Position numbers and translations under genes: made by a program. This document shows positions 2,021-14,041 of a stretch of 64,000 nt of DNA, in pieces. Location of the stretch: NCBI RefSeq assembly GCF_007922615.2, contig NZ_CP042301.2, positions 4,572,001-4,636,000 on the forward strand, in the 5' to 3' direction. How positions within the stretch are numbered: position 1 is the first letter of the stretch; each line of letters opens with the position of its first letter. The notes below the pieces were generated by a model. It saw only the letters and a program-made list of their open reading frames with translations, had not been told where the DNA came from and did no database searches. The DNA is from Nitratireductor mangrovi. Its GTDB lineage: Bacteria > Pseudomonadota > Alphaproteobacteria > Rhizobiales > Rhizobiaceae.

Positions 2021-2117
2021 CCGAACCAGGGCCCAAGCGCTTTTGGGATCGGGCTGCCGCTTTGCAACTCCGCTCGCTGGTGCGATACTGCCGTTGGGCA
2101 TGGGGAGGGCCGGGGCC

Positions 2118-2972
2118 ATGCGAACCGTCGCACGCAACCTCGCTTTCTTGCTGATCGCGTTTCTGGTTTCCGCCTGCGTGACCGCAGCCGTGATTCCGCC
2201 GAGCCACGAGCGCGAGTGGGAACCGTCGGTCTCGCGACTCCCGACGGTTCGCTGGATCTCCGACGACGTCTTCGCGATGTCCAATATCCGCGACTGGCAG
2301 TGGGGCGAGGATGGTGCGACCCGCCGGCGCTGGCACCAGAGGCGCTATGACCTCCGCGACACGCGGGCGATCTGGTTCTTCGTGGAGCCGTTCCCCTACG
2401 GCCGTTCCCTGGCTCACACATTCATCACGTTCGAACTGGGGCGTGGTGCGCGGCGCGAGTTCCTCACCGTCTCGGTGGAGGCGCGCAAGGAGGTGGGCGA
2501 GACCTATTCGCCTGTTCGCGGGTTGTTTTCCGCGTACGAGTTGATCTTCGTTTGGTCGACGGAAAAGGACATCCTTACAGATACCATCATCCGCCTCGGT
2601 CATGAGGTTCGTGCCTACAAGGTGAACGTCACGCCCGACCAGGCGCGCATCATCCTGCGGGGCTTCCTTCGCAGGACCAATGAGATCGCGGCCTCGCCGG
2701 AATATTACGACACACTCGAAAACAACTGCACCAGCGAACTGGCTGCCGTTGTCAACCGCGAGTTCGACATGCCGATCCCGCGCCATTCCTCCTATGTGCT
2801 CACCGGCACGGCGGCGCGCTACCTGCACAGCCTGGGCTATATTGTCGATCCCTCTGAATCCTACGCCGAGGTCGATGCCCGGGCGGATATCGGCGGGCCG
2901 GTGCGCCGCTTCGGTCATCTCGGCGAGCGCCGCTTCTCGATCGCCTGGCGCCGTGTCGTCGAAGGGCGGTAA
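2118..2972 (+). CDS. DUF4105 (Lnb N-terminal domain) lipoprotein
   Basis: Predicted lipoprotein of 284 residues. I chose the ATG at 2118 because it follows a GGGGAGGG ribosome site and opens a short hydrophobic signal ending in the lipobox VSAC. The mature part matches the DUF4105 pattern: a SNIRDW segment, a WFFVEPF segment, AHTFITFE, SVEARKE, and a C-terminal ENNCTSELA motif whose Asn, Cys and Thr are typical of this putative periplasmic peptidase-like fold. No enzymatic activity is established for most members. The gene runs in the same direction as metK-trmB, 97 bases after trmB, and converges on the Lrp-type regulator. The family assignment is by motif only. Confidence 0.75.
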   Translation: MRTVARNLAFLLIAFLVSACVTAAVIPPSHEREWEPSVSRLPTVRWISDDVFAMSNIRDWQWGEDGATRRRWHQRRYDLRDTRAIWFFVEPFPYGRSLAHTFITFELGRGARREFLTVSVEARKEVGETYSPVRGLFSAYELIFVWSTEKDILTDTIIRLGHEVRAYKVNVTPDQARIILRGFLRRTNEIAASPEYYDTLENNCTSELAAVVNREFDMPIPRHSSYVLTGTAARYLHSLGYIVDPSESYAEVDARADIGGPVRRFGHLGERRFSIAWRRVVEGR

Positions 2973-2988
2973 ATGATGCAGGTCGGCG

Positions 2989-3435
2989 TCACAAACGCGC
3001 GCTGGTGCTGCGTGGCGTCGCCAGCAGCAGGCTCGTCTCGCTGCCGGTGATGCCTGGAATCAGCCGGATCTGACGCAAGACCGCGTCGAACTCGGTCAGT
3101 GAACCGGTGCTGAGTTCCACCACCAGATCCCAGCGGCCGTTGGTGGTGTGGATCGTCGCCACCTCGGCGAAGCCGCCCAGCGCGCGGATCACCCTGTCCG
3201 CGGCGTGACCCTCGATCTCGATCATCATGATGCCGCGCACCCGCTGCTCGACCGCGTCGGCGCGCAGTATGACCGTATAGCCGATGATGTCGCCGGCGCG
3301 TTCGAGGCGCTCCATGCGCGCCCGCACCGTGGCGCGCGAGGCGCCCAGTTCCTGTGCCAGATCGGAAACGCTGCGCCGCGCGTCATGGCGCAGCAGGGTG
3401 ACGAGTTTGCGGTCGAAATCGTCCATGGTGACCAT
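2989..3435 (-). CDS. Lrp/AsnC family transcriptional regulator
   Basis: 148-residue Lrp/AsnC-type regulator. The N-terminal winged helix (about residues 5-62) includes the DLAQELGASRATVRARM recognition region, and a C-terminal RAM-type ligand-binding domain follows (about 67-142). It is transcribed divergently from the arginase and ornithine cyclodeaminase genes, so it is probably their arginine- or ornithine-responsive regulator, as is known for Lrp-type activators of arginine catabolism in other alphaproteobacteria. The effector is inferred from context. The start could also be the internal ATG three codons downstream. Confidence 0.9.
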   Translation of the reverse strand: MVTMDDFDRKLVTLLRHDARRSVSDLAQELGASRATVRARMERLERAGDIIGYTVILRADAVEQRVRGIMMIEIEGHAADRVIRALGGFAEVATIHTTNGRWDLVVELSTGSLTEFDAVLRQIRLIPGITGSETSLLLATPRSTSARL

Positions 3436-3440
3436 TTTGA

Positions 3441-3496
3441 TAAAGTAATACGCGCAAACTGAAAACCGATTTCAATGATTTTGCCAAATTACCTTA
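3441..3496. promoter_or_regulatory. Imperfect inverted repeat, possible Lrp operator
   Basis: In the AT-rich divergent region between the Lrp-type gene and arginase, TAAAGTAAT (3441-3449) faces ATTACCTTA (3488-3496). This is a nine-base inverted repeat with one mismatch, with centres about 47 bases apart. The spacing and AT-richness fit a multi-site Lrp-type operator, but this is inference. Confidence 0.4.
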
Positions 3497-3559
3497 TTCA
3501 CTTCGCCATCGTCGGACGTCATTTTTTTGGCGAGACCATCATGGGGGCGTTGGACGGCC

Positions 3560-4480
3560 ATGCGTTGCAGGATCGTGGGAGCACCGGTTCAGGACGGCGC
3601 CGGCCGCATGGGGTGCGAGATGGGGCCGAGTGCGTTGCGCACCGCCGGCCTCGTCGGCGCCATCGCCGAACTCGGCCACGAGGTCGTCGACATGGGCACG
3701 GTCGAGCGCGCCATGGTGCGGCCGGCGGTGCACGGCAATCTCGCCCTCAAGGCGCTGCCCGAGATCGTCGCCTGGACCGAGGCACTGACCGATGCCGCCT
3801 ACCGGGCCAGCGCCGACGCCATGCCGATCTTTCTCGGCGGCGATCATTCCATCTCGGCCGGCACCCTGTCGGGCATTGCGCGCCGTGCGGCCGAGCTTGG
3901 TCGTCCGCTGTTCGTGCTGTGGCTCGACGCCCATCCGGATTTCCACACCCTCGACAGCACCACCAGCGGCAATTTGCACGGCGTGCCGCTCGCCTATGCC
4001 AGCGGCCAGCCGGGCTTTGACGGCCTTTTCCCCGACCTGCCGGTCCGCGTCGACCCGCGCCGCGTCTGCGCCTTCGGCCTGCGCAGCGTCGACCCCGCCG
4101 AGCGCCGCGCGCTGACGGCGGCAGGCGTCACCGTCCACGACATGCGCGTCATCGACGAGCATGGCGCCGCGCCGCTGATGCGGGACTTCATCGCCCGCGT
4201 CGCGGCCGAGGGCGGGCTCTTGCATGTCAGCCTCGATGTCGACTTCCTCGATCCGGCGATCGCGCCCGCCGTCGGCACGACGGTCCCCGGCGGCGCGACC
4301 TTCCGTGAGGCGCATCTGGTCATGGAGATGCTCTCCGACAGCGGCCTGGTGTCGAGCCTCGATCTTGTCGAGTTGAACCCCTTCCTCGACGAGCGCGGCC
4401 GCACCGCGACGCTCCTCGTCGATCTCGTCGCGAGCCTGATGGGCCGCCGCATCATGGACCGCCCCACGAGGAGTTTCTGA
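3560..4480 (+). CDS. Arginase
   Basis: Manganese-dependent ureohydrolase converting arginine to ornithine and urea. The 306-residue protein begins with CRIVGAPVQDGAGRMGC, the usual N-terminus of alphaproteobacterial arginases. That is why the ATG at 3560 is preferred over an upstream in-frame TTG at 3527. Metal ligands are visible: His96 in GGDHS, Asp123/His125/Asp127 in DAHPDFHT, and Asp226/Asp228 in SLDVDFLDP. The gene ends two bases before ornithine cyclodeaminase, giving a two-step catabolic operon. The divergent Lrp/AsnC gene is its probable regulator. Agmatinase or another ureohydrolase is possible, but the ornithine cyclodeaminase partner argues for arginase. Confidence 0.92.
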   Translation: MRCRIVGAPVQDGAGRMGCEMGPSALRTAGLVGAIAELGHEVVDMGTVERAMVRPAVHGNLALKALPEIVAWTEALTDAAYRASADAMPIFLGGDHSISAGTLSGIARRAAELGRPLFVLWLDAHPDFHTLDSTTSGNLHGVPLAYASGQPGFDGLFPDLPVRVDPRRVCAFGLRSVDPAERRALTAAGVTVHDMRVIDEHGAAPLMRDFIARVAAEGGLLHVSLDVDFLDPAIAPAVGTTVPGGATFREAHLVMEMLSDSGLVSSLDLVELNPFLDERGRTATLLVDLVASLMGRRIMDRPTRSF

Positions 4481-4482
4481 TC

Positions 4483-5541
4483 ATGGGCTACGCCCCTTCC
4501 GCGCTGGCACTTGTGCCCTTCATCAGCGTCGAGAACATGATGCGCGTCGTGCATGCCACCGGCATCGAGCGGTTTCTGGCCGAACTCGCCGACTACATCG
4601 AGCAGGACTTTCGCCGCTGGCAGCTGTTCGACAAGACGCCGCGCGTCGCCTCGCATTCGCGCGAGGGCGTGATCGAACTGATGCCGACCAGCGACGGCGA
4701 GGCTTACGGCTTCAAATATGTCAACGGCCATCCCAAGAACACCAAGGAGGGCCGCCAGACCGTCACCGCCTTTGGCGTCATGGCCGAGGTCGACACCGGC
4801 TATCCGGTGCTGATCACCGAGATGACCATCCTCACCGCGCTGCGCACCGCTGCGATGTCGGCGCTCGCGGCGCGCTATCTCGCCCCCGAAGGCTCGAGGA
4901 CCATGGCCGTTATCGGCAACGGCGCCCAGTCCGAGTTCCAGGCGCTCGCCTTCCGTTCGCTGGTCGGCATCGACCGGCTGCGGCTTTATGATATCGACCG
5001 TTCCGCCAGCGAGCGTTGCCGGCGCAACCTCGCCGGCCGCGGCTTCGACATCGTGGTTTGCGGCTCGCCGGAGGAGGCGGTCGAGGGTGCCGACATCGTC
5101 ACCACCGTCACCGCCGACAAGCAATATGCGACCATCCTCACCGACAACATGGTCGGCCCCGGCATCCACATCAACGCGGTCGGCGGCGACTGCCCGGGCA
5201 AGACCGAGCTCCACCGCGACATCCTGCTGCGTTCGTCGATCTTCGTCGAATACCCGCCGCAGACGCGCATCGAGGGCGAGATCCAGCAGCTTGCGGCCGA
5301 CCATCCCGTCACCGAGCTGTGGCAGGTCTTTACCGGCCAGGGGCCAGGCCGGACCGGCCGCGACCAGATCACGCTGTTCGATTCGGTCGGCTTCGCGGTG
5401 GAGGACTTTTCCGCCCTTCGCTACATGCGCGCCCTGATCGGCAAGCTGCCTTATTACGACCAACTCGACCTTCTCGCCGACCCCGACGATCCGCGCGACC
5501 TCTTCGGCATGCTGATGCGCGCCGAACCGCAGCCGGCATAA
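4483..5541 (+). CDS. Ornithine cyclodeaminase
   Basis: Converts L-ornithine to L-proline with loss of ammonia, using tightly bound NAD; it belongs to the OCD/mu-crystallin family. The 352-residue protein has the substrate-side segment GFKYVNGHPKNT (about 85-96), a Rossmann motif MAVIGNGAQSEFQ (about 140-152) and the conserved INAVGGDCPGKTEL segment (about 229-242), all typical of Agrobacterium-type ornithine cyclodeaminases. A GAGGAG ribosome site lies across the end of the arginase gene. Together with arginase it completes an arginine-to-proline route. Confidence 0.93.
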   Translation: MGYAPSALALVPFISVENMMRVVHATGIERFLAELADYIEQDFRRWQLFDKTPRVASHSREGVIELMPTSDGEAYGFKYVNGHPKNTKEGRQTVTAFGVMAEVDTGYPVLITEMTILTALRTAAMSALAARYLAPEGSRTMAVIGNGAQSEFQALAFRSLVGIDRLRLYDIDRSASERCRRNLAGRGFDIVVCGSPEEAVEGADIVTTVTADKQYATILTDNMVGPGIHINAVGGDCPGKTELHRDILLRSSIFVEYPPQTRIEGEIQQLAADHPVTELWQVFTGQGPGRTGRDQITLFDSVGFAVEDFSALRYMRALIGKLPYYDQLDLLADPDDPRDLFGMLMRAEPQPA

Positions 5542-5575
5542 TCGCCGGATCAGGGACGGGAGCGCGCGTTCCACC

Positions 5576-5604
5576 CTTGCAATATCGCCCGTCCGGCGCT
5601 ATAT
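5576..5604 (+). promoter_or_regulatory. Predicted sigma-70 promoter of the rimP-nusA-infB operon
   Basis: CTTGCA (5576-5581), a 17-base spacer and CTATAT (5599-5604) match the rhizobial housekeeping consensus CTTGAC-N17-CTATAT closely. Transcription would start near 5611, giving a leader of about 80 bases before rimP that includes the terminator hairpin at 5633-5664. Identified by eye; no transcript data. Confidence 0.65.
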
Positions 5605-5632
5605 CGGCGTCAAATTCTTGGTCGTGACGACG

Positions 5633-5664
5633 AAGAGTGGGTCCCACCGGTCCCGCTCTTTTTT
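5633..5664 (+). terminator. Intrinsic terminator inside the rimP leader
   Basis: AAGAGTGGG (5633-5641) pairs with CCCGCTCTT (5652-5660) through nine base pairs including one G-U. The loop is ten bases, and a run of six T ends at 5664. This is a complete Rho-independent terminator shape, 27 bases before the rimP start codon and downstream of the predicted promoter. It therefore looks like an attenuator rather than only the end of the ornithine cyclodeaminase transcript. Confidence 0.75.
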
Positions 5665-5691
5665 GTTAGCCGCGGCCCGGTCGGAGACTTC

Positions 5692-6318
5692 ATGACGGAA
5701 TTCGCCAGCGCAACGGCAAGCGATGATCGCCTGATCCGCGAAAGCGGCGTCGACGCGCGCGTGGCGACGCTGATCCAGCCGCTCTTGCGCTCCATGGGTT
5801 TCCGCCTGGTGCGGGTGCGGCTTTCGGGCCAGAACGGCCTGACGCTGCAGATCATGGCCGAGCGCGAGGACGGCACCATGACCGTCGAGGATTGCGAGGA
5901 GTTGAGCCGCGCGGTTTCGCCGGCGCTCGACGTCGAGGACGTCATCGACAGGGCCTACCACCTGGAAGTGTCGTCCCCCGGTATCGACAGGCCGCTGGTG
6001 CGCAAGTCGGATTTCGCACAGTGGGCCGGTCACCTCGCCAAGGTCGACACCTCGGTCATGGTGGCCGAGCGCAAACGCTTTCGCGGCCGCATCGTGGAGA
6101 GTGACGAGGAGGGTATCCTTCTCGAGCGCGACCAGGCGAGCTACGGCGACGAGCCGACGGTGCGCATTCCGTTCGACGCGATCGCCGATGCCAGGCTCGT
6201 GCTCACCGACGATCTCGTGCGCGACGCGATCAGGCAGGACAAGAAGGCGCGCCAGCAAGCAAAAAAGCGCCGCGGCGGCGATGCCGGCGGCGAAGACGGA
6301 TCACAACCAAGGGAATGA
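5692..6318 (+). CDS. rimP: Ribosome maturation factor RimP
   Basis: Factor for 30S subunit maturation. The 208-residue protein has the N-terminal RimP domain (about 25-105, with the typical LVRVRLSG and DVEDVID...[14 protein letters not shown] segments) followed by an SH3-like C-terminal domain, and a lysine/arginine-rich tail. It is the first gene of the rimP-nusA-ylxR-infB-rbfA-truB operon, the usual position in bacteria. A GGAGA ribosome site precedes the ATG. Confidence 0.95.
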
Positions 6319-6363
6319 CCGGTGACCGGCGCCGTGCGCCGGTCCGACTCAAGGGAGACAGAA

Positions 6364-7971
6364 ATGGCTGTCAGTGCAAACCGGCTCGAACTGCTGCAGA
6401 TCGCCGATGCGGTCGCACGCGAGAAGTCGATCGAAAAGGACATCGTGCTCCACGCGATGGCCGACGCCATCCAGAAGGCGGCGCGCTCGCGCTATGGCCA
6501 GGAGACCAACATCCGCGCCGACATCAATGCCCAGACCGGCGAGATGAAGTTGCAGCGCCTGATGGAGGTGGTCGAGCAGGTCGAGGAGCCGGCACGCGAG
6601 ATCGCGCTCGCCGAGGCCCGCGAACGCAATCCCGACGCCCAGCCCGGCGATTTCATCGCCGAGCAGCTGCCGCCGATGGATTTCGGGCGCATCGCCGCCC
6701 AGTCGGCCAAGCAGGTCATCGTGCAGAAGGTGCGCGAGGCCGAGCGCGACCGCCAGTACGACGAATACAAGGACCGCATCGGCGAGATCGTCAACGGCTC
6801 GGTGAAGCGGGTCGAATACGGCAACGTCATTGTCGATCTCGGCCGCGGCGAGGCGATCATCCGCCGCGACGAGATGATCCCGCGCGAGATGTTCAAATAT
6901 GGCGACCGCGTGCGCGCCTATGTCTACGACGTGCGCCGCGAGCAGCGCGGACCGCAGATTTTCCTGTCGCGCACCCACCCGCAGTTCATGGCCAAGCTGT
7001 TCACCATGGAAGTCCCGGAGATTTATGACGGCATTATCGAGATCAAGTCGGTGGCCCGCGACCCGGGCTCGCGCGCCAAGATCGCCGTGATCAGCCGCGA
7101 CTCCTCCATCGATCCCGTCGGCGCCTGCGTCGGCATGCGCGGCAGCCGCGTCCAGGCGGTCGTCGGCGAGTTGCAGGGCGAGAAGATCGACATCATCCCG
7201 TGGTCGCCCGACGCCGCATCCTTCATCGTCAACGCGCTGCAGCCGGCCGAGGTCGCCAAGGTGGTGCTCGACGAGGATGCCGAGCGCATCGAGGTGGTGG
7301 TGCCCGACGAGCAGCTGTCGCTGGCGATCGGCCGTCGCGGCCAGAACGTCCGCCTCGCCTCGCAATTGACCGGCTGGGACATCGACATCCTCACCGAGGA
7401 AGAGGAGTCTGCCCGCCGCCAGAAGGAATTCGTCGAGCGTTCCAGCCTGTTCATGGATGCGCTCAACGTCGACGAGATGGTCGGCCAGGTGCTGGCTTCG
7501 GAAGGCTTCACCTCGGTCGAGGAAGTGGCCTATGTCGATCAGGACGAGATTTCCTCGATCGACGGTTTTGACGAGGACACCGCGACCGAGATCCAGGCCC
7601 GCGCCCGCGAATATCTCGACCGCATCGAGGCGGAGAACGACGAGCAGCGCCGTGCGCTCGGCGTCGAGGACGAGCTTCGCGAGATTCCCGGCATCACCAC
7701 CGCAATGATGGTCAAGCTGGGCGAGGACGACGTCAAGACGATCGAGGACTTCGCCGGCTACGCCGTCGACGACCTTGTCGGCTGGAAGGAGCGCAAGGAC
7801 GGCGAGACGCAGATGTTTGCCGGCGTGTTCTCCGATTTCGACGTCTCGCGCGCCGACGCCGAGCAGATGGTGGTCGCCGCTCGCATGAAGATGGGCTGGA
7901 TCACTGAAGAGGACCTGCTTCCCGCAGCCGAAGACGAGGAAGCCGGCGAAGCCGAAACGGCCGGCGCCTGA
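6364..7971 (+). CDS. nusA: Transcription termination/antitermination factor NusA
   Basis: Binds RNA polymerase and nascent RNA, promoting pausing and intrinsic termination and taking part in rRNA antitermination. The 535-residue protein has an N-terminal polymerase-binding domain (1-130), an S1 domain (about 135-205), two KH domains (from about 230, including [14 protein letters not shown] and [13 protein letters not shown]) and two C-terminal helix-hairpin-helix repeats (about 365-505), with an acidic tail. The ATG at 6364 follows GGGAGA and starts with the family's usual [11 protein letters not shown]. NusA may act on the terminator in its own operon leader. Confidence 0.97.
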
Positions 7972-8007
7972 GCCGACCGATGAGGCCGGAGCGCGCGGGA
8001 GAGACTG

Positions 8008-8619
8008 TTGGACGCAATGGGCGAGCGCACATGCATCGTGACGCGGCGCGCTGCGGAACCGGACGAACTGATCCGCTTCGTGGCAGGCCCCGACATGACG
8101 GTCGTGCCCGACCTGAAGCGCAATCTCCCGGGCCGCGGCTGCTGGGTCAGCGCTGACCGCGTCCATGTCGACGAGGCGGCGCGCCGCAACATCTTCCGCA
8201 AGGCGCTGAAGGCGCCGGTGACCGTGGCGCCGGAACTCGGCGCCCAGGTCGACGCCTTGCTTTCCAGGTCCGTGCTTGGTGCGCTCGGGCTTGCGCGCAA
8301 GGCTTCCGCCGTGGCATTGGGATCGGCCAAGGTTGATGCCGCCATCCGTGGCGGGCGTGCGCTGGCCGTGCTTCACGCCCGCGAGGCCGCCGAGGACGGC
8401 GTCCGCAAGCTGACCCAGGCGCGTCGCGCGACGCTGCTGGTGGGCGGCCCCGACATCCCCGCATACGAACTCTTTTCGGAAGCCGAAATGAGTTTGGCAT
8501 TCGGGGGCGCAAATGTGATACATGCTGCCCTGCTCGATGCGGATGCGGGCAAGGCAGCCTATAGGCGCATGGTTGCGCTTGACCGGTACCGGGGCGGTTC
8601 CCCGGCCGCCGCAACATGA
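8008..8619 (+). CDS. YlxR-YlxQ fusion, RNA-binding protein
   Basis: 203-residue protein of the nusA-infB operon. The N-terminal half (about 5-80) is a YlxR/DUF448 domain with the RTCIVTRR motif and the GRGCWV segment. The C-terminal half (about 90-190, [20 protein letters not shown] and AAEDGVRKL) resembles the L7Ae-type RNA-binding YlxQ. Gram-positive bacteria encode these two as separate genes in the same operon; here they are one polypeptide, as is usual in alphaproteobacteria. The start may be the TTG at 8008, well spaced from GGGAGAG, or the ATG at 8017. Confidence 0.85.
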
Positions 8620-8662
8620 TCGACGGCGCGTCCTCGCGGACGGCGCCGAACAAGGATACGGA

Positions 8663-11218
8663 ATGACGGATACCAAATCTGGCGACGACAAGACGCTGAG
8701 CATGACCGGCAAGAAGACCCTGAGCCTGAAGCGGCCGGGCGTCGAGCAGGGCACAGTGCGTCAGAATTTCTCGCACGGGCGCAGCAAGTCCGTCGTCGTC
8801 GAGACCAAGAAGCGCAAGTTCACCATGCCGGGCGACAAGCACGAGACTGCCGCCCCGGTCACGCTCGCCCCGCGCCCGCAGCCGGCGCCCAAGCCGGTGG
8901 TCGCGAAGGAGCAGCCGAAGCCGGCGCCCGGCAGTTCGTCCGAGCGTTCAGGCCTCGTCCTCAACGAACTCTCGACCGAGGAGATGGAGGCGCGCCGGCG
9001 CGCGCTTCAGGACTCCAAGGTTCGCGAGGTCGAGGAGCGCAAGCGCGCCCAGGAGGACGCCAAGCGCCGCGCCGAGGAGGATGAGCGCCGCCGCCTCGAA
9101 CGCGAGGAGTCGGCCCGCCGCCAGGCGGACGAGGAAGCGCGTCTGGCCGCCGAGGCCGAGGCTCGCCGCCGCTCCGAGGAAGAAGCGCGGCGCCGCGCTC
9201 CGCAGCCTGAGCCGGAAGCCGAGGAAGAGGACCGCGACGCCAAGCGCAAGGCCAAGCCCGGCCTGCCGCCCAAGCGCATTGCCACGCCGGAGCCGGCCCG
9301 TCCGGCGCGCCCGCGCGGCGGTGATGACCGCCGTCGCGGCAAGCTGACGCTCAACAGCGCGCTCTCCGGCGAGGAGGGTCGCTCACGTTCGCTGTCGTCG
9401 ATGCGCCGTCGCCAGGAGAAGTTCAAGCGCGCCATGCACCAGGAGCCGCGCGAGAAGATCGCGCGCGAGGTGACCCTGCCCGAGACGATCACCATCCAGG
9501 AACTCGCCGGCCGCATGGCCGAGCGTGCCGTCGACGTGATCAAGTTCTTCATGAAGCAGGGCCAGATCCTGAAGCCGGGCGATGTCATCGACGCCGACAC
9601 GGCCGAACTGGTCGCTTCCGAGTTCGGCCACACCGTCAAGCGCGTCTCGGAGTCGGATGTCGAGGAAGGCCTCTTCAACATTCCCGACAAGCCCGAGAAC
9701 CAGCTCTCGCGCCCGCCGGTCGTCACCATCATGGGCCACGTCGACCACGGCAAGACGTCGCTGCTCGACGCGATCCGCCACGCCAATGTCGTGTCGGGCG
9801 AGGCCGGCGGCATCACTCAGCATATCGGCGCCTATCAGGTTGAGCAGGACGGTCAGAAGATCACCTTCATCGACACGCCCGGCCACGCCGCCTTCACCGC
9901 CATGCGCGCCCGTGGCGCCCAGGCGACCGACATCGCCATCCTCGTGGTGGCGGCCGATGACAGCGTCATGCCGCAGACGGTGGAATCCATCAATCACGCC
10001 AAGGCGGCAGGTGTGCCGATCATCGTGGCGATCAACAAGATCGACAAGCCGGAAGCCGACGCGCAGAAGGTGCGCACCGAGCTCCTGCAGCACGAGGTGT
10101 TCGTGGAATCGATGGGCGGCGAGGTGCTCGACGTCGAGGTTTCCGCGGTCAAGGGCACCAATCTCGACAAGCTGCTCGAGGCGATCCTGCTGCAGGCCGA
10201 ACTGCTCGACCTGAAGGCCGACCCGGAGCGTACTTCCGAGGGCGTCATCATCGAGGCCAAGCTCGACAAGGGCCGCGGCCCCGTCGCTACCGTGCTGGTG
10301 CAGACCGGCAAGCTCCTGCCGGGCGACATCATCGTCGCCGGCAACGAGTGGGGCAAGGTCCGCGCGCTGGTCGACGACCGCGGCGAGCAGGTTGCCGAGG
10401 CGGGTCCGTCCATGCCGGTCGAGGTTCTCGGTCTGCAGGGCACGCCGCAGGCGGGTGACCGCTTCGCCACCGTGGAGAATGAGGCCCGCGCCCGCGAGAT
10501 CAGCGAATACCGCCAGCGCAAGGCGCGCGAGATGGCCGTCGCCAAGCATGCCGGCCAGCGCGGTTCGCTCGAGCAGATGATGACGCAGCTCCAGGAAAGC
10601 GGCGTCAAGGAGTTCCCGCTGGTCATCAAGGGCGACGTGCAGGGTTCGATCGAGGCCATCGTGGCCGCGCTCGACAAGCTCGGCACCGACGAGGTGCGCG
10701 CCCGCATCGTGCATTCGGGTGCCGGCGGCATCACCGAAAGCGACGTCTCGCTCGCCGAGACATCGGAAGCGGCGATCATCGGCTTCAACGTGCGCGCCAA
10801 CAAGCAGGCGCGCGACGCGGCCGAACAGGCCGGCATCGAGATCCGCTACTACAACATCATCTACAACCTCGTGGATGACGTGAAGGCGGCGATGTCGGGC
10901 CTGCTGTCGCCGGAGCGTCGCGAGACCTTCCTCGGCAATGCGGAGATCCTCGAGGTCTTCAACATCACCAAGGTCGGCAAGGTCGCCGGCTGCCGTGTCA
11001 GCGAAGGCAAGGTCGAGCGTGGCGCCGGCGTGCGTCTGATCCGCGACGACGTCGTCATCCACGAAGGCACCTTGAAGACGCTGAAGCGCTTCAAGGACGA
11101 GGTCTCGGAGGTGCCGGCCGGTCAGGAATGCGGCATGGCCTTTGCCAACTACGAGGACATCCGTGCCGGCGACGTCATCGAGGCCTTCCGCGTCGAGATG
11201 GTGACGCGGACGCTCTAA
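8663..11218 (+). CDS. infB: Translation initiation factor IF-2
   Basis: GTPase that places initiator tRNA on the 30S subunit. The 851-residue protein has a long charged, alanine/glutamate/arginine-rich N-terminal region (about 110-230, probably helical), an IF-2 N2 domain, then the GTPase with GHVDHGKTS (G1), DTPGHAAF (G3) and NKIDK (G4) from about residue 353. The beta-barrel and C2 tRNA-binding domains follow. The ATG at 8663 follows AAGGATACGGA and gives the usual [13 protein letters not shown] start. Length is normal for Rhizobiales. Confidence 0.97.
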
Positions 11219-11325
11219 GGCGCCGCCGTCGCACGCGCTTTGCCGTCGGCGGTTCGTTTGAACCGTCGGCGGTCCGCACATTGGACGGCCGCGGTCCGAT
11301 CCCGCTGAGCCCATTGGTACGAACG

Positions 11326-11733
11326 ATGTCCAGATCACCGAACTCAGGCCCCTCCCAGCGCCAGCTTCGCGTCGGCGAGCAGGTGCGTCACGCGCTCTCC
11401 GACGTCCTGCAGCGCGGCGAGGTGCGCGACGAGCTGATCGAGAACACCGTCATCTCGATCTCCGAGGTCCGCATGTCGCCCGACCTCAAGATCGCCACCG
11501 CTTTCGTCGCCCCGCTCGGCGCCGCGGACGAGGATGCGGTGGTCAAGGCGCTGGCGCGCAACGCCAAGTTCATCCGCGGCCGCGTCTCGGGTGCGCTGCG
11601 CCAGCTCAAATACATGCCCGAATTCCGCTTCCGGCCTGACACCAGCTTCGACAACATGTCGCGCATCGACGAACTCCTGCGCTCGCCCGAGGTGGCCCGC
11701 GACCTCGACGGGGACGAGGGGGAAAGCGAATGA
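11326..11733 (+). CDS. rbfA: Ribosome-binding factor A
   Basis: 135-residue cold-shock and 30S maturation factor that binds near 16S helix 1. The body shows the RbfA KH-like fold sequence, including [43 protein letters not shown] and [10 protein letters not shown]. The ATG at 11326 was chosen because homologous sequence begins at [16 protein letters not shown]. It lies 107 bases after infB in the same direction and is part of the same operon. Confidence 0.95.
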
Positions 11734-11825
11734 GCGGTTTGCGTTCTCTTCACCGCCTCTGGCGGTCCGCGTCCCCCGCGTCGCAGGGGAGAATTGGCGT
11801 CGCGACCGGCCGCCGCCTTGATCCT

Positions 11826-11876
11826 CCCACGTTCACGGGGGAGGGGGACCATGCGAAGCATGGTGGAGGGGCGTCT
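11826..11876. repeat. Short palindromic element between rbfA and truB
   Basis: Contains CTCCCACG facing CGGGGGAG around a short loop, then ACCATGC-GAA-GCATGGT (a perfect 7-bp hairpin), then GTGGAGGGG. A purine-rich GGGAGGGGGACC...GGTGGAGGGG element of this kind is familiar from Mesorhizobium-type genomes as a dispersed intergenic repeat. That recollection is knowledge-based and was not checked by search. It lies just before the truB start codon. Confidence 0.55.
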
Positions 11877-11895
11877 CCAAGGGCCGGCTCCGCTG

Positions 11896-12879
11896 ATGGC
11901 GCGCCGCGGCAAGAAGAAGGGCCGTCCGGTCTCCGGCTGGCTGGTGCTCGACAAGCCGGTCGGCATGGGCTCGACCGAGGCCGTCTCCAAGGTCAAGTGG
12001 TTGTTCAAGGCCGACAAGGCCGGCCATGCCGGAACGCTCGACCCGCTCGCCTCCGGCATGCTGCCGATCGCGCTCGGCGAGGCGACCAAGACGGTGCCCT
12101 ACGTCATGGACGGCGCCAAGGTCTATCGCTTCACGGTTGCCTGGGGTGCCGAACGCACCACCGACGATCTCGAGGGCGAGGTGACCGCCACCTCCGACAA
12201 GCGGCCGACCGAGGCCGAGATACGCGCGCTGCTGCCGCGCTATACCGGCATCATCATGCAGGTGCCGCCGCAATTCTCCGCGGTCAAGATCGCCGGCGAG
12301 CGCGCCTACGACATCGCCCGCGACGGCGAGGCGGTGGTCATCCCGCCGCGCGAGGTCGAGATCGGACGGCTGGAACTGGTCGGGCGGCCGGATGACGCCA
12401 GCGCGGTCTTCGAGATCGAATGCGGCAAGGGCACCTATGTGCGCTCGCTCGCCCGCGACATGGGCCGCGACATCGGCTGCTACGGCCACATCGCCGATCT
12501 TCGCCGCGTCGAGGTCGATCCCTTCACCGCCGACGATCTGGTCACGCTGGCCGCGCTGGAACAGGCGGCGGCCGAGGCCGCGCCGCGCGGCGAGGCCGAC
12601 GCCGAAGGCCGCATCGTCGATCCGCGTCCAGACAAGGAGCGTTTCGCCGCGCTCGACGCGCTGCTGATCGACACCGGTGCCGCGCTCGATTGCCTGCCCG
12701 CCATCCCCGTCAGCGACGACGCGGCGCAGCGCATCCGGCTCGGCAACCCGGTCATCGTCCGCGGCCGCGACGCGCCGGTCGAGGCCCCGGAGGCCTATGC
12801 CACGGCGCGCGGCCGCCTGGTCGCCATCGGCGCCGTCGAGGCCGGCATGTTCAAGCCCAAGCGCGTCTTCGCCGGCTGA
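11896..12879 (+). CDS. truB: tRNA pseudouridine(55) synthase
   Basis: Makes pseudouridine 55 in the T-loop of tRNAs. The 327-residue protein begins [21 protein letters not shown]; the catalytic aspartate is Asp49 in [12 protein letters not shown]. The C-terminal region is longer than in E. coli. An in-frame upstream extension to 11794 exists, but it reads through the palindromic repeat and lacks family similarity, so the ATG at 11896 is preferred. It is the last gene of the rimP operon. Confidence 0.93.
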
Positions 12880-12901
12880 CACCTGCCGGGCGGCTTTCAC
12901 G

Positions 12902-12940
12902 CCGGCAGCCGATTTCCCCTTGCGGCGCCGGCGATTTTTT
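12902..12940 (+). terminator. Probable terminator after truB
   Basis: CCGGC-AG-CCG pairs with CGG-C-GCCGG across an 11-base loop, giving eight base pairs with small bulges. CGA and six T (12935-12940) follow. It sits between truB and the CorA gene and probably ends the rimP-truB transcript. Confidence 0.5.
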
Positions 12941-12955
12941 CGCCTACTCCCGGCC

Positions 12956-14041
12956 ATGAGCGGAAAGCACAGGGCCAAGCCGAAGTTCGTTTCCCGGCAC
13001 CGGGCGCCCGTCGGCGCGCCGCCCGGCACGCTCATTCCCGACGATCGCGCCTCGCCGACCGGCATCCGGCTGACCATCATCGCTGACGATCATGTCGAGG
13101 AGATCGCCAACGCCCCGCTCTCGCTGGTCGAGAAGGAGATGCAGGCGGGCAGGCGGCTCTGGGTCGACGTCACCGGGCTTGCCGATCTCGAACTGCTTGG
13201 GCGCGTCGGGTCGCTGTTCTCGATCCAGGAACTGGCGCTGGAGGACATCGCCAACACCAACCAGCGCCCCAAGGTCGATACCTACGAGACCCACGCGCTG
13301 ATCGTCGTTCACATGTTCGACGGCAAGGGTGTGGAATCGAAAGAGCAGTTCTCGATCCTGTTCGACGGCCAGCACGTGGTCACTTTCCAGGAGCGGCCGG
13401 GCGACTGCCTCGACCCGGTCCGCAAGCGCCTGCAGCAGCCGCAAGGGCGCATCCGCAAGCGCGGCGCGCCCTACCTCGTCTATGCAATCCTCGACACCAT
13501 CCTCGATGCCTATTTCCCGATGCTGGAAGTCATCGGTGACGAGCTCGAGGAGCTGGAGGACAAGATCACCAAGGACCCGCATCCCGAGGATGTCGGCCGC
13601 CTGCACGAACTGAAACGCGAACTGCTTGTGATCAAGCGCGCGCTGTGGCCGTCGCGCGAGATGCTGTCGGCGATGAGCCGCGAGGAACTCGGCCTGATCC
13701 CGCGCGATGTCGGCTATTTCCTGCGCGACACCTATGACCACGCGATCCAGCTGATCGACATCGTCGAGACATATCGCGAACTCGCCACCGGCCTGCTCGA
13801 CCTCTACCTCTCCAGCGTCTCGACCAGGATGAACGAGGTGATGAAGGTGCTGACCATCATCTCGACCATATTCATCCCGCTGTCCTTCCTGGCCGGCATC
13901 TGGGGAATGAACTTCGCGCCGGATTCGTCGTGGAACATGCCCGAGCTCAGATGGCGCTATGGCTATCCGGTGGCGCTGACCTTCATGGTGCTGATCGCGG
14001 TCGGGCTGCTCTACCTGTTCCGCCGCAAGCGCTGGCTCTGA
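12956..14041 (+). CDS. CorA family Mg2+/divalent cation transporter
   Basis: Inner-membrane divalent metal channel of 361 residues. The large cytoplasmic N-terminal domain is followed by a long helix (DELEELEDKITKDP region) and two C-terminal transmembrane helices; the first ends in the signature GIWGMNF (GMN at about 317). The C-terminus is basic (FRRKRWL), as in CorA. It starts 15 bases after the putative truB terminator. Substrate could be Mg2+, Co2+, Ni2+ or Zn2+; sequence alone does not decide. A plus-strand frame extending upstream into truB is a shadow. Confidence 0.9.
   Translation: MSGKHRAKPKFVSRHRAPVGAPPGTLIPDDRASPTGIRLTIIADDHVEEIANAPLSLVEKEMQAGRRLWVDVTGLADLELLGRVGSLFSIQELALEDIANTNQRPKVDTYETHALIVVHMFDGKGVESKEQFSILFDGQHVVTFQERPGDCLDPVRKRLQQPQGRIRKRGAPYLVYAILDTILDAYFPMLEVIGDELEELEDKITKDPHPEDVGRLHELKRELLVIKRALWPSREMLSAMSREELGLIPRDVGYFLRDTYDHAIQLIDIVETYRELATGLLDLYLSSVSTRMNEVMKVLTIISTIFIPLSFLAGIWGMNFAPDSSWNMPELRWRYGYPVALTFMVLIAVGLLYLFRRKRWL

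Follow-up and report, generated by a model that had tools for sequence, protein, structure and literature searches.

A conserved leader terminator before rimP-nusA-infB in Nitratireductor mangrovi and its relatives, a candidate for NusA feedback

The leader and its place before rimP

The rimP-nusA-infB operon sets the supply of NusA and IF-2. In the window, the whole 64,000-nucleotide stretch of Nitratireductor mangrovi DNA analysed here, this operon is preceded by a short putative leader that brings together a promoter-like sequence, a hairpin and a run of Ts (Table 1). The identities of RimP, NusA and IF-2 were confirmed with curated models. The terminator stem (AAGAGTGGG/CCCGCTCTT) has nine pairs, one of them U-G, and is followed by six Ts; 27 bases separate the T run from the ATG of rimP at 5692. 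The original prediction had described such a promoter, a nine-pair hairpin with a six-T tail and a 27-base gap to rimP, and all of these can be read directly in the sequence. The predicted transcription start is near 5610-5612. The gene 5' of the leader, directed the same way as rimP, belongs to the ornithine cyclodeaminase family (PF02423, here ocd). Positions 2043-5541 hold four frames between trmB and rimP, including an Lrp-like regulator (recognised by eye), an arginase and the ornithine cyclodeaminase.

Table 1. Features of the rimP leader and the genes that follow it (window coordinates)
Feature	Position	Strand	Details
Putative promoter, sigma-70-type, CTTGCA-N17-CTATAT	5576..5604	+	CTTGCA 5576-5581, 17 bases, CTATAT 5599-5604
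Predicted leader RNA, ~54 nt, inferred start site (5610-5612) to end of T run	5611..5664	+	Predicted ends; conservation
P1, 5' hairpin	5616..5636	+	TCTT 5616-5619 with AAGA 5633-5636; GTC 5621-5623 with GAC 5629-5631; one G-G mismatch
Intrinsic-terminator hairpin	5633..5664	+	AAGAGTGGG 5633-5641 / CCCGCTCTT 5652-5660; T run 5659-5664
Terminator hairpin, upper part		+	U5642-U5651 mismatch; CC 5643-5644 / GG 5649-5650
CGCGGCC, possible 3' strand of P3 (long-range helix with 5620-5626 in read-through RNA)	5671..5677	+	Tentative
rimP	5692..6318	+	NCBIfam NF000932, 286.5 bits
nusA	6364..7971	+	TIGR01953, 462.6 bits
infB	8663..11218	+	TIGR00487, 788.3 bits

Taken alone, the promoter does not stand out from chance, with 5 matches of at least 10/12 on both strands of the 64-kb window against 3.4 in shuffles, and the claim of a real promoter and leader therefore rests on conservation. 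CTTGCA-N17-CTATAT was also not among the sites of a standard promoter scan of positions 4000-14000. In a strict terminator scan of both strands of the window, the leader hairpin was the strongest of 5 matches (-18.2 kcal/mol), and the RNA from 5611 to 5664 folds with a z of -3.3, none of 200 shuffles being equally stable. In a standard scan of 4000-14000 the hairpin was picked up with no more than 5 pairs, among 4 terminator-like sites against 4.7 in shuffles.

Conservation was followed in a near-relative set made up of the best 80 of 198 RimP matches and the window's own genus (84 loci scanned, with L001 excluded as a duplicate of the window). The set covers the own genus, Mesorhizobium, Nitratireductor, Aminobacter, Aquibium and others, and is mostly Mesorhizobium. 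The leader is present in all 84 loci, in L004 on the reversed strand. Across 81 distinct leaders, the window included, CTTG of the -35 element is invariant, TATAT of the -10 element is kept in 90-100%, the spacer between the two drifts, and conservation is at least 80% at each base from about 5610 as far as the T run. The same level holds for some ten bases 3' of the T run (TTACCTGCCG), with drift beyond. All 11 pairs of the terminator stem are 100% kept in an alignment of 31 non-redundant near-relative leaders (alignment A1). Further afield, the promoter 6-mers are enriched de novo 5' of the hairpin in both the order Rhizobiales and the class; in the order, CTATAT occurs in 18 of 68 against 1.2 expected, and CTTGCA in 13 of 68 against 1.0.

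In nine near-relative loci (L031, L034, L051, L059, L064, L066, L073, L076 and L082) the hairpin and the RimP match are 85-140 nt apart with the leader intact; in the other near-relative loci measured this distance is at most 60 nt. Palindromic-looking blocks (e.g. GCATCGGACCGAAAAGTGCGAAGCGGTTTTCGG), resembling mobile repeat elements, recur in several of the inserts.

Beyond the near relatives, an order sample of 118 genomes with a RimP_N match (of 120 searched) was compared with a class sample from outside the order, made up of 61, mostly the best-scoring, of 125 further class genomes with a RimP_N match. A terminator (hairpin plus T run) stands 25-330 bases 5' of the RimP domain in 92 of the 118 order loci, against 8 on the reverse strand, and in 56 of the 61 class loci, against 5; these matches include a few non-canonical hairpins. 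The exact pattern GAGTGGGN4-14CCCGCTCTTTTT was found in 110 of 249 order genomes, as a single copy in each, with 0 matches to its backward control, and wherever rimP could be located in these genomes (44 of 44) the pattern lies 75-362 nt 5' of the RimP domain. Its TCCGC variant occurs in 22 of the 249, with 1 match in the backward control.

It had been predicted that the terminator lies inside the transcript bound for nusA; near relatives keep this arrangement along with the promoter, and the hairpin is also kept throughout the order and class. Two outcomes had been named as contrary to this idea, namely a hairpin and T run lacking conservation, and a transcription start downstream of 5664. 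In sequence terms neither outcome appeared: the leader comparison found both hairpin and T run kept in most relatives examined, and no more than 27 bases separate the hairpin from rimP.

The alternative offered with the prediction, that the hairpin solely terminates the upstream ocd transcript while the promoter of rimP lies elsewhere, draws on the fact that the hairpin is indeed downstream of ocd and in the same direction. However, while ocd precedes the leader in the window, L006, L011 and L015, the same leader occurs behind other genes: taking the nearest of four query proteins (trmB, ocd, metK and arginase) at 80 near-relative loci gives trmB in 59, ocd in 3 and neither in 18. Among the matches listed, trmB is 406-1877 bases away. 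A TctA gene forms the long upstream frame in L008, L027 and L035, and the upstream gene is divergent in two cases, LysE in L151 of the order (with trmB located beyond it) and GGDEF in L234 of the class, the hairpin lying between each of these and rimP. Because the same leader stands behind different, even divergent, upstream genes, the hairpin is not merely the end of ocd; with a conserved promoter preceding it and 27 bases left to rimP, this alternative fails and is, in our judgement, exceedingly improbable. On the sequence comparisons, the hairpin belongs to the promoter and to rimP. In L006, L011 and L015 both ocd and an arginase gene precede the leader; most other near-relative loci have trmB.

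Structure of the terminator stem and of the RNA at its foot

Stem pairs were tabulated for the 83 of 92 order matches that fit GTGGG or GCGGG...YCCRC, a selection that itself sets most letters of the 5' arm and the CC in the 3' arm, with positions counted from the core base towards the loop. The nine matches left out comprise five with A-U at position 5 and C-G at position 6 (L204, L205, L208, L209 and L212) and four that do not fit (L216, L219, L228 and L232). Position 2 is U-G in 81 of the 83 leaders. Position 5 is G-C in 64 and G-U in 19. At position 6, 30 leaders have a Watson-Crick pair, 15 have U-G and 38 have a mismatch (C-A 24, U-U 5, G-A 4, U-C 4, A-A 1); the window has U-U. The two positions vary together, since G-U at 5 is joined with a Watson-Crick pair at 6 in 19 leaders and G-C at 5 with a weak pair at 6 in 53, while 11 are Watson-Crick at both and 0 are weak at both (Fisher 2e-11). 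By family majorities the counts are 10, 24, 6 and 0 (9e-6). One weak pair at positions 5/6 is thus found in 72 of the 83 order leaders.

Exceptions are of two kinds: the 11 leaders and the five A-U leaders that are Watson-Crick at both positions, and three of the 22 TCCGC matches, all from family f30, with G-U at 5 and U-G at 6. Including the five A-U leaders and the three f30 exceptions brings the test to 2e-7 for leaders and 1e-4 for families. In 40 of 43 from outside the order, position 6 holds a Watson-Crick or U-G pair. The simplest reading of the weak pair would be selection for an intermediate stem strength within the order; another is a kink required by a protein.

A second structure may compete with this stem. 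The 3' strand of the 5' hairpin P1 is also the foot of the terminator stem, and because both need this strand, P1 and the full-length terminator are mutually exclusive on paper. In near relatives, TCTTGGTC near the 5' end could pair with GACGAAGA, whose AAGA is the terminator foot; other leaders of the order mostly have TCTC/GAGA at this place, and L102 and L146 have TCTA/TAGA. In A1, 97.7% of the P1 cells are paired, with one double change (L149, where an inner P1 pair goes from G-C to A-U), a level matched by 21 of 500 shuffles.

Structure tests used 108 non-redundant leaders of the 137 canonical cores among the 148 matches, 106 of them with a -10-like call, and L216, which carries a tandem array, was retained in the P1 test. 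The RNA was folded from the inferred start to the foot, and for comparison the upstream part was shuffled and the foot kept. Three or more of the last five foot bases are paired in 56 of 64 non-redundant order leaders, against 38.5 expected (sd 3.4); none of 200,000 simulations reached 56, and the mean fold z was -1.46. Replacing the start call by a fixed 40-nt segment gave 53 against 37.5 expected, with a mean z of -1.17. Fold z was negative in 36 of 39 families (mean -1.44, SE 0.17). At foot position -4, the 56 leaders have C-G in 34, U-A in 6, A-U in 5, U-G in 5 and G-C in 1, with 5 unpaired.

Other measures of P1 gave a less uniform picture. Compared with shuffles, the duplex energy gave a weak signal (order mean z -0.36, 5 of 92 at p<=0.05). 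In the order the foot-swap test reached significance (p 0.0002-0.003), but its mock-foot control came close to it there (p 0.06) and reached it in the class (p 0.006). For exact-complement swaps, again in the order, p was 0.005 with 4-mers, 0.09 with 5-mers and 0.26 with 6-mers. Foot sharing outside the order was not clearly above chance (19 of 42 against 13.8). Excluding the foot from the terminator costs a median of 1.9 kcal/mol, with 38 of 64 leaders within 2 either way and 13 gaining; the constraint permitted an unpaired foot and so did not force P1. The evidence for P1 is statistical, and suggests that it may be a competing fold with the terminator. Judging from the structure, P1 would lower termination, and the core hairpin plus UCUUUUUU could yet terminate with P1 formed.

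In the 118 order loci, the hairpin is followed by at least five Ts in 90 and by three or four in 10; 10 have the hairpin without a T run, and the pattern is absent from 8, among which L104 (a long-loop hairpin with no T run) was counted. One of the ten T-less loci, L180, was scored on another hairpin, and its leader still shows GGAGTGGGGCCGGCCCGCTTCAG without a T run. The T-less loci fall in families f2, f13, f15, f16, f31, f42 and f48, and members with a T run also occur in f2, f13, f15, f16 and f42 (L173, L148, L160, L089 and L110). An upstream -10-like box with 5/6 matches is found in 8 of the ten. Genus g33 (family f31) gave hairpin matches in 8 of its 13 genomes; three of these eight are already among the 118 loci, and all eight leaders keep the -10 box, the 5' part and GTGGGTCC...GGNCCCGCTC, which is directly followed by CAAA, CCAAA or CACG, not by Ts. 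Since hairpins are kept without a T run in about ten order loci and in g33, plain intrinsic termination does not account for everything. Such conservation suggests that something reads the hairpin itself; decay is possible as well.

The 5' part of the leader in genus g33 (L189, L211, L227 and L265-L272), ACATCGTCGA.TGGCT, is nearly invariant despite the missing U-tract.

Known leaders and a proposed mechanism

The rimP-leader was described by Naville and Gautheret in 2010, and headed their list of the gene families most often under attenuation, with NusA named as the best candidate (PMC2965389). The parts of that paper concerned with it give a motif GGGc(...)gCCC and a terminator 4-130 nt before the gene, mention no larger conserved element, and place an antiterminator solely in several Gammaproteobacteria (PMC2965389). 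The words Rhizobi- and Alphaproteobacteria are absent from its main text (PMC2965389). By sequence criteria the window element is this rimP-leader. It occupies the 5' region of rimP-nusA-infB, whose genes follow in order; it has G-rich and C-rich arms (GGG 5639-5641 / CCC 5652-5654), a U-stretch after the hairpin (T6, 5659-5664) and a distance of 27 nt to the gene, within 4-130. The lower-case c/g of the motif is U-U in the window and varies in the order, being C-G in 24 of 83. Place, GGG...CCC hairpin and U-tract are thus shared, whereas the 5' hairpin overlapping the terminator foot sets the window apart. The core idea of a leader terminator with NusA as the suspect has been in print since 2010; the P1 overlap, the weak pair at 5/6 and the hairpins without a U-tract, all read from sequence, were not met in the literature searched and appear to be new. 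No paper on an alphaproteobacterial rimP leader was recognised among the matches listed from the open-licence literature.

Related leaders have been described in several other bacteria, here as given in the relevant parts of each source. In Streptococcus agalactiae, RNA-seq revealed a short RNA that ends 31 nt after its start before gbs0413 (rimP-nusA), and NusA feedback was proposed (PMC4448216); the window leader resembles it in being short, in sharing its start with the operon mRNA and in its very close spacing, although that of S. agalactiae comes from RNA-seq and that of the window is predicted. According to a 2025 review, NusA of Bacillus subtilis is autoregulated via NusA-stimulated termination in its own leader (PMC12288461), and B. 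subtilis NusA is stated to assist suboptimal hairpins and U-tracts (PMC8060035). As there, a terminator leads the operon before nusA, in the window between the promoter inferred from sequence and the first gene; NusA dependence is stated for B. subtilis, whereas the window leader is known as sequence. A similar mechanism was proposed from mutations for the Escherichia coli operon (PMC4448216), in which terminators t1 and t2 precede rimP, along with metY and several promoters (PMC6511841). The gammaproteobacterial two-terminator rimP-leader and the E. coli metY-rimP-nusA-infB leader are like the window in having more than one hairpin or terminator before rimP (PMC2965389, PMC6511841), but in those leaders the upstream element also terminates, whereas P1 lacks a U-tract. 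UpsM of Rhodobacter sphaeroides, a 206-nt leader terminator RNA before mraZ with a proposed function in trans (PMC5089854), is likewise an alphaproteobacterial leader terminator, there yielding a small RNA, and differs in its operon, its length and its proposed trans role.

The reading we consider rather likely is that of a tuned terminator acting prematurely, probably under feedback by NusA, with the P1 fold competing against it. A premature intrinsic terminator would start about 20-50 bases past the inferred start site of rimP-nusA-infB, and RNA polymerase would either stop near 5664, giving a leader RNA of about 54 nt, or read into the operon. As the RNA emerges, P1 would fold first and hold the terminator foot (AAGA here, GAGA in most of the order), which the terminator would have to regain for its full length; P1 would in this way slow or weaken termination. 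The weak pair at 5/6 and the fixed U-G at 2 may together confer an intermediate stem strength that leaves room for a tipping factor. NusA promotes hairpin formation and intrinsic termination, and would for this reason be the likeliest such factor. By analogy with B. subtilis, high NusA would lead to more stops and less expression of the operon, and NusA is probably the sensor of this leader.

Some of the same observations could be accommodated in other ways. The hairpin might mainly serve in the nascent RNA as a site of pausing or of binding by a protein such as NusA or RimP, the T run being an optional addition that makes it a terminator in most lineages. The fixed letters fitted by 83 of the 92 order matches, the single occurrence of the pattern per genome at rimP and the T-less hairpins (8 of 10 with a -10-like box, and 8 of 8 in g33) would all agree with this, but a T run of at least five in 90 of 118 order loci speaks for termination, and T-less hairpins could be terminators in decay or ones that need no Us; we regard this explanation as unlikely. 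A constitutive, calibrated roadblock, in which a fixed read-through fraction balances the supply of RimP, NusA and IF-2 with no regulator, would account for the one weak pair usually kept at 5/6 with compensation between the positions, and for the small energy cost of freeing the foot. It fits poorly with the NusA autoregulation via an equivalent leader stated for B. subtilis (PMC12288461) and with the similar NusA mechanism proposed from mutations for E. coli (PMC4448216), and appears to us quite unlikely. A trans-acting small RNA like UpsM has an alphaproteobacterial precedent (PMC5089854), and nearly all bases of the 54-nt leader, those of single-stranded parts included, are conserved in near relatives; yet beyond these the non-stem bases differ between leaders (by eye) and no Rfam family reached its gathering score, which makes such a role very unlikely.

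Termination and binding could also be combined. The alphaproteobacterial rimP-leader might be a two-state RNA switch, in which a protein, most likely NusA, binds the GUGGG/CCCGC hairpin and thereby picks P1 or the terminator, and lineages of the g33 type would have dropped the U-tract and would still regulate by pausing or by U-tract-free termination. With the hairpin as the receptor, the U-tract would be dispensable in g33. We consider this extension unlikely. The competing hairpin, the compensated weak pair and the natural losses of the U-tract supply concrete mutations and variants that could separate NusA-driven termination from hairpin binding.

Weaker candidates and variant terminators

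Several further elements were considered and given up or held as tentative. An upstream open reading frame in the leader was rejected, because neither the window nor L009 nor L015 has the ATG found in most Mesorhizobium leaders (GTATGACG). Some leaders have a 5' strand, CTCA(A)TAG, that resembles an 11-mer which may be the RNA bound by Mycobacterium tuberculosis NusA. CATAG shows no enrichment in the order (5 of 68, shuffle mean 3.0) and a weak one outside it (7 of 53, mean 1.8, maximum 6 over 100 shuffles); CTCA exceeds shuffles in the order (37 of 68, mean 20.2, maximum 28) and does not outside (7 of 53, mean 7.5). A NusA-binding box of this kind is at most a weak candidate.

The long-range helix P3 is tentative. 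The order shows more complementarity between the leader and the 30 nt after the T run than shuffles do (mean z -0.45, p 0.005), with 13 of 64 leaders at p<=0.05 against 2 and 4 of 64 in controls. Swap tests were positive, yet so was a promoter-region control (z -3.46); a GC-matched version was not significant (p 0.07), and fixed-column counting among near relatives gave no support. An SSU search of the own genome for a comparison with the 16S leader returned no match, probably a search miss. In the window, Rfam gave 0 matches at gathering score; sub-threshold matches at 5560-5720 include sbrA at 16.8 bits (45 needed) and Atu_C9 at 14.9 on the other strand (40 needed).

Two kinds of variant were seen before rimP. 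L216 (genome G104) has tandem terminator-like units (AAAGAGAGCGGGCC...ACCGCTCTTTTTGTTTGC) about 200-300 bases 5' of the RimP domain, and the same genome also has one canonical hairpin upstream of the array. In L201, L229, L230 and L232, from family f4 with AT-rich genomes of 1.3-1.4 Mb, a different short terminator replaces the GTGGG hairpin: AGGCTTTCTCGA...GCC with about nine Ts in three of them, and GGGCTCC...AGCCC with seven Ts in L201.
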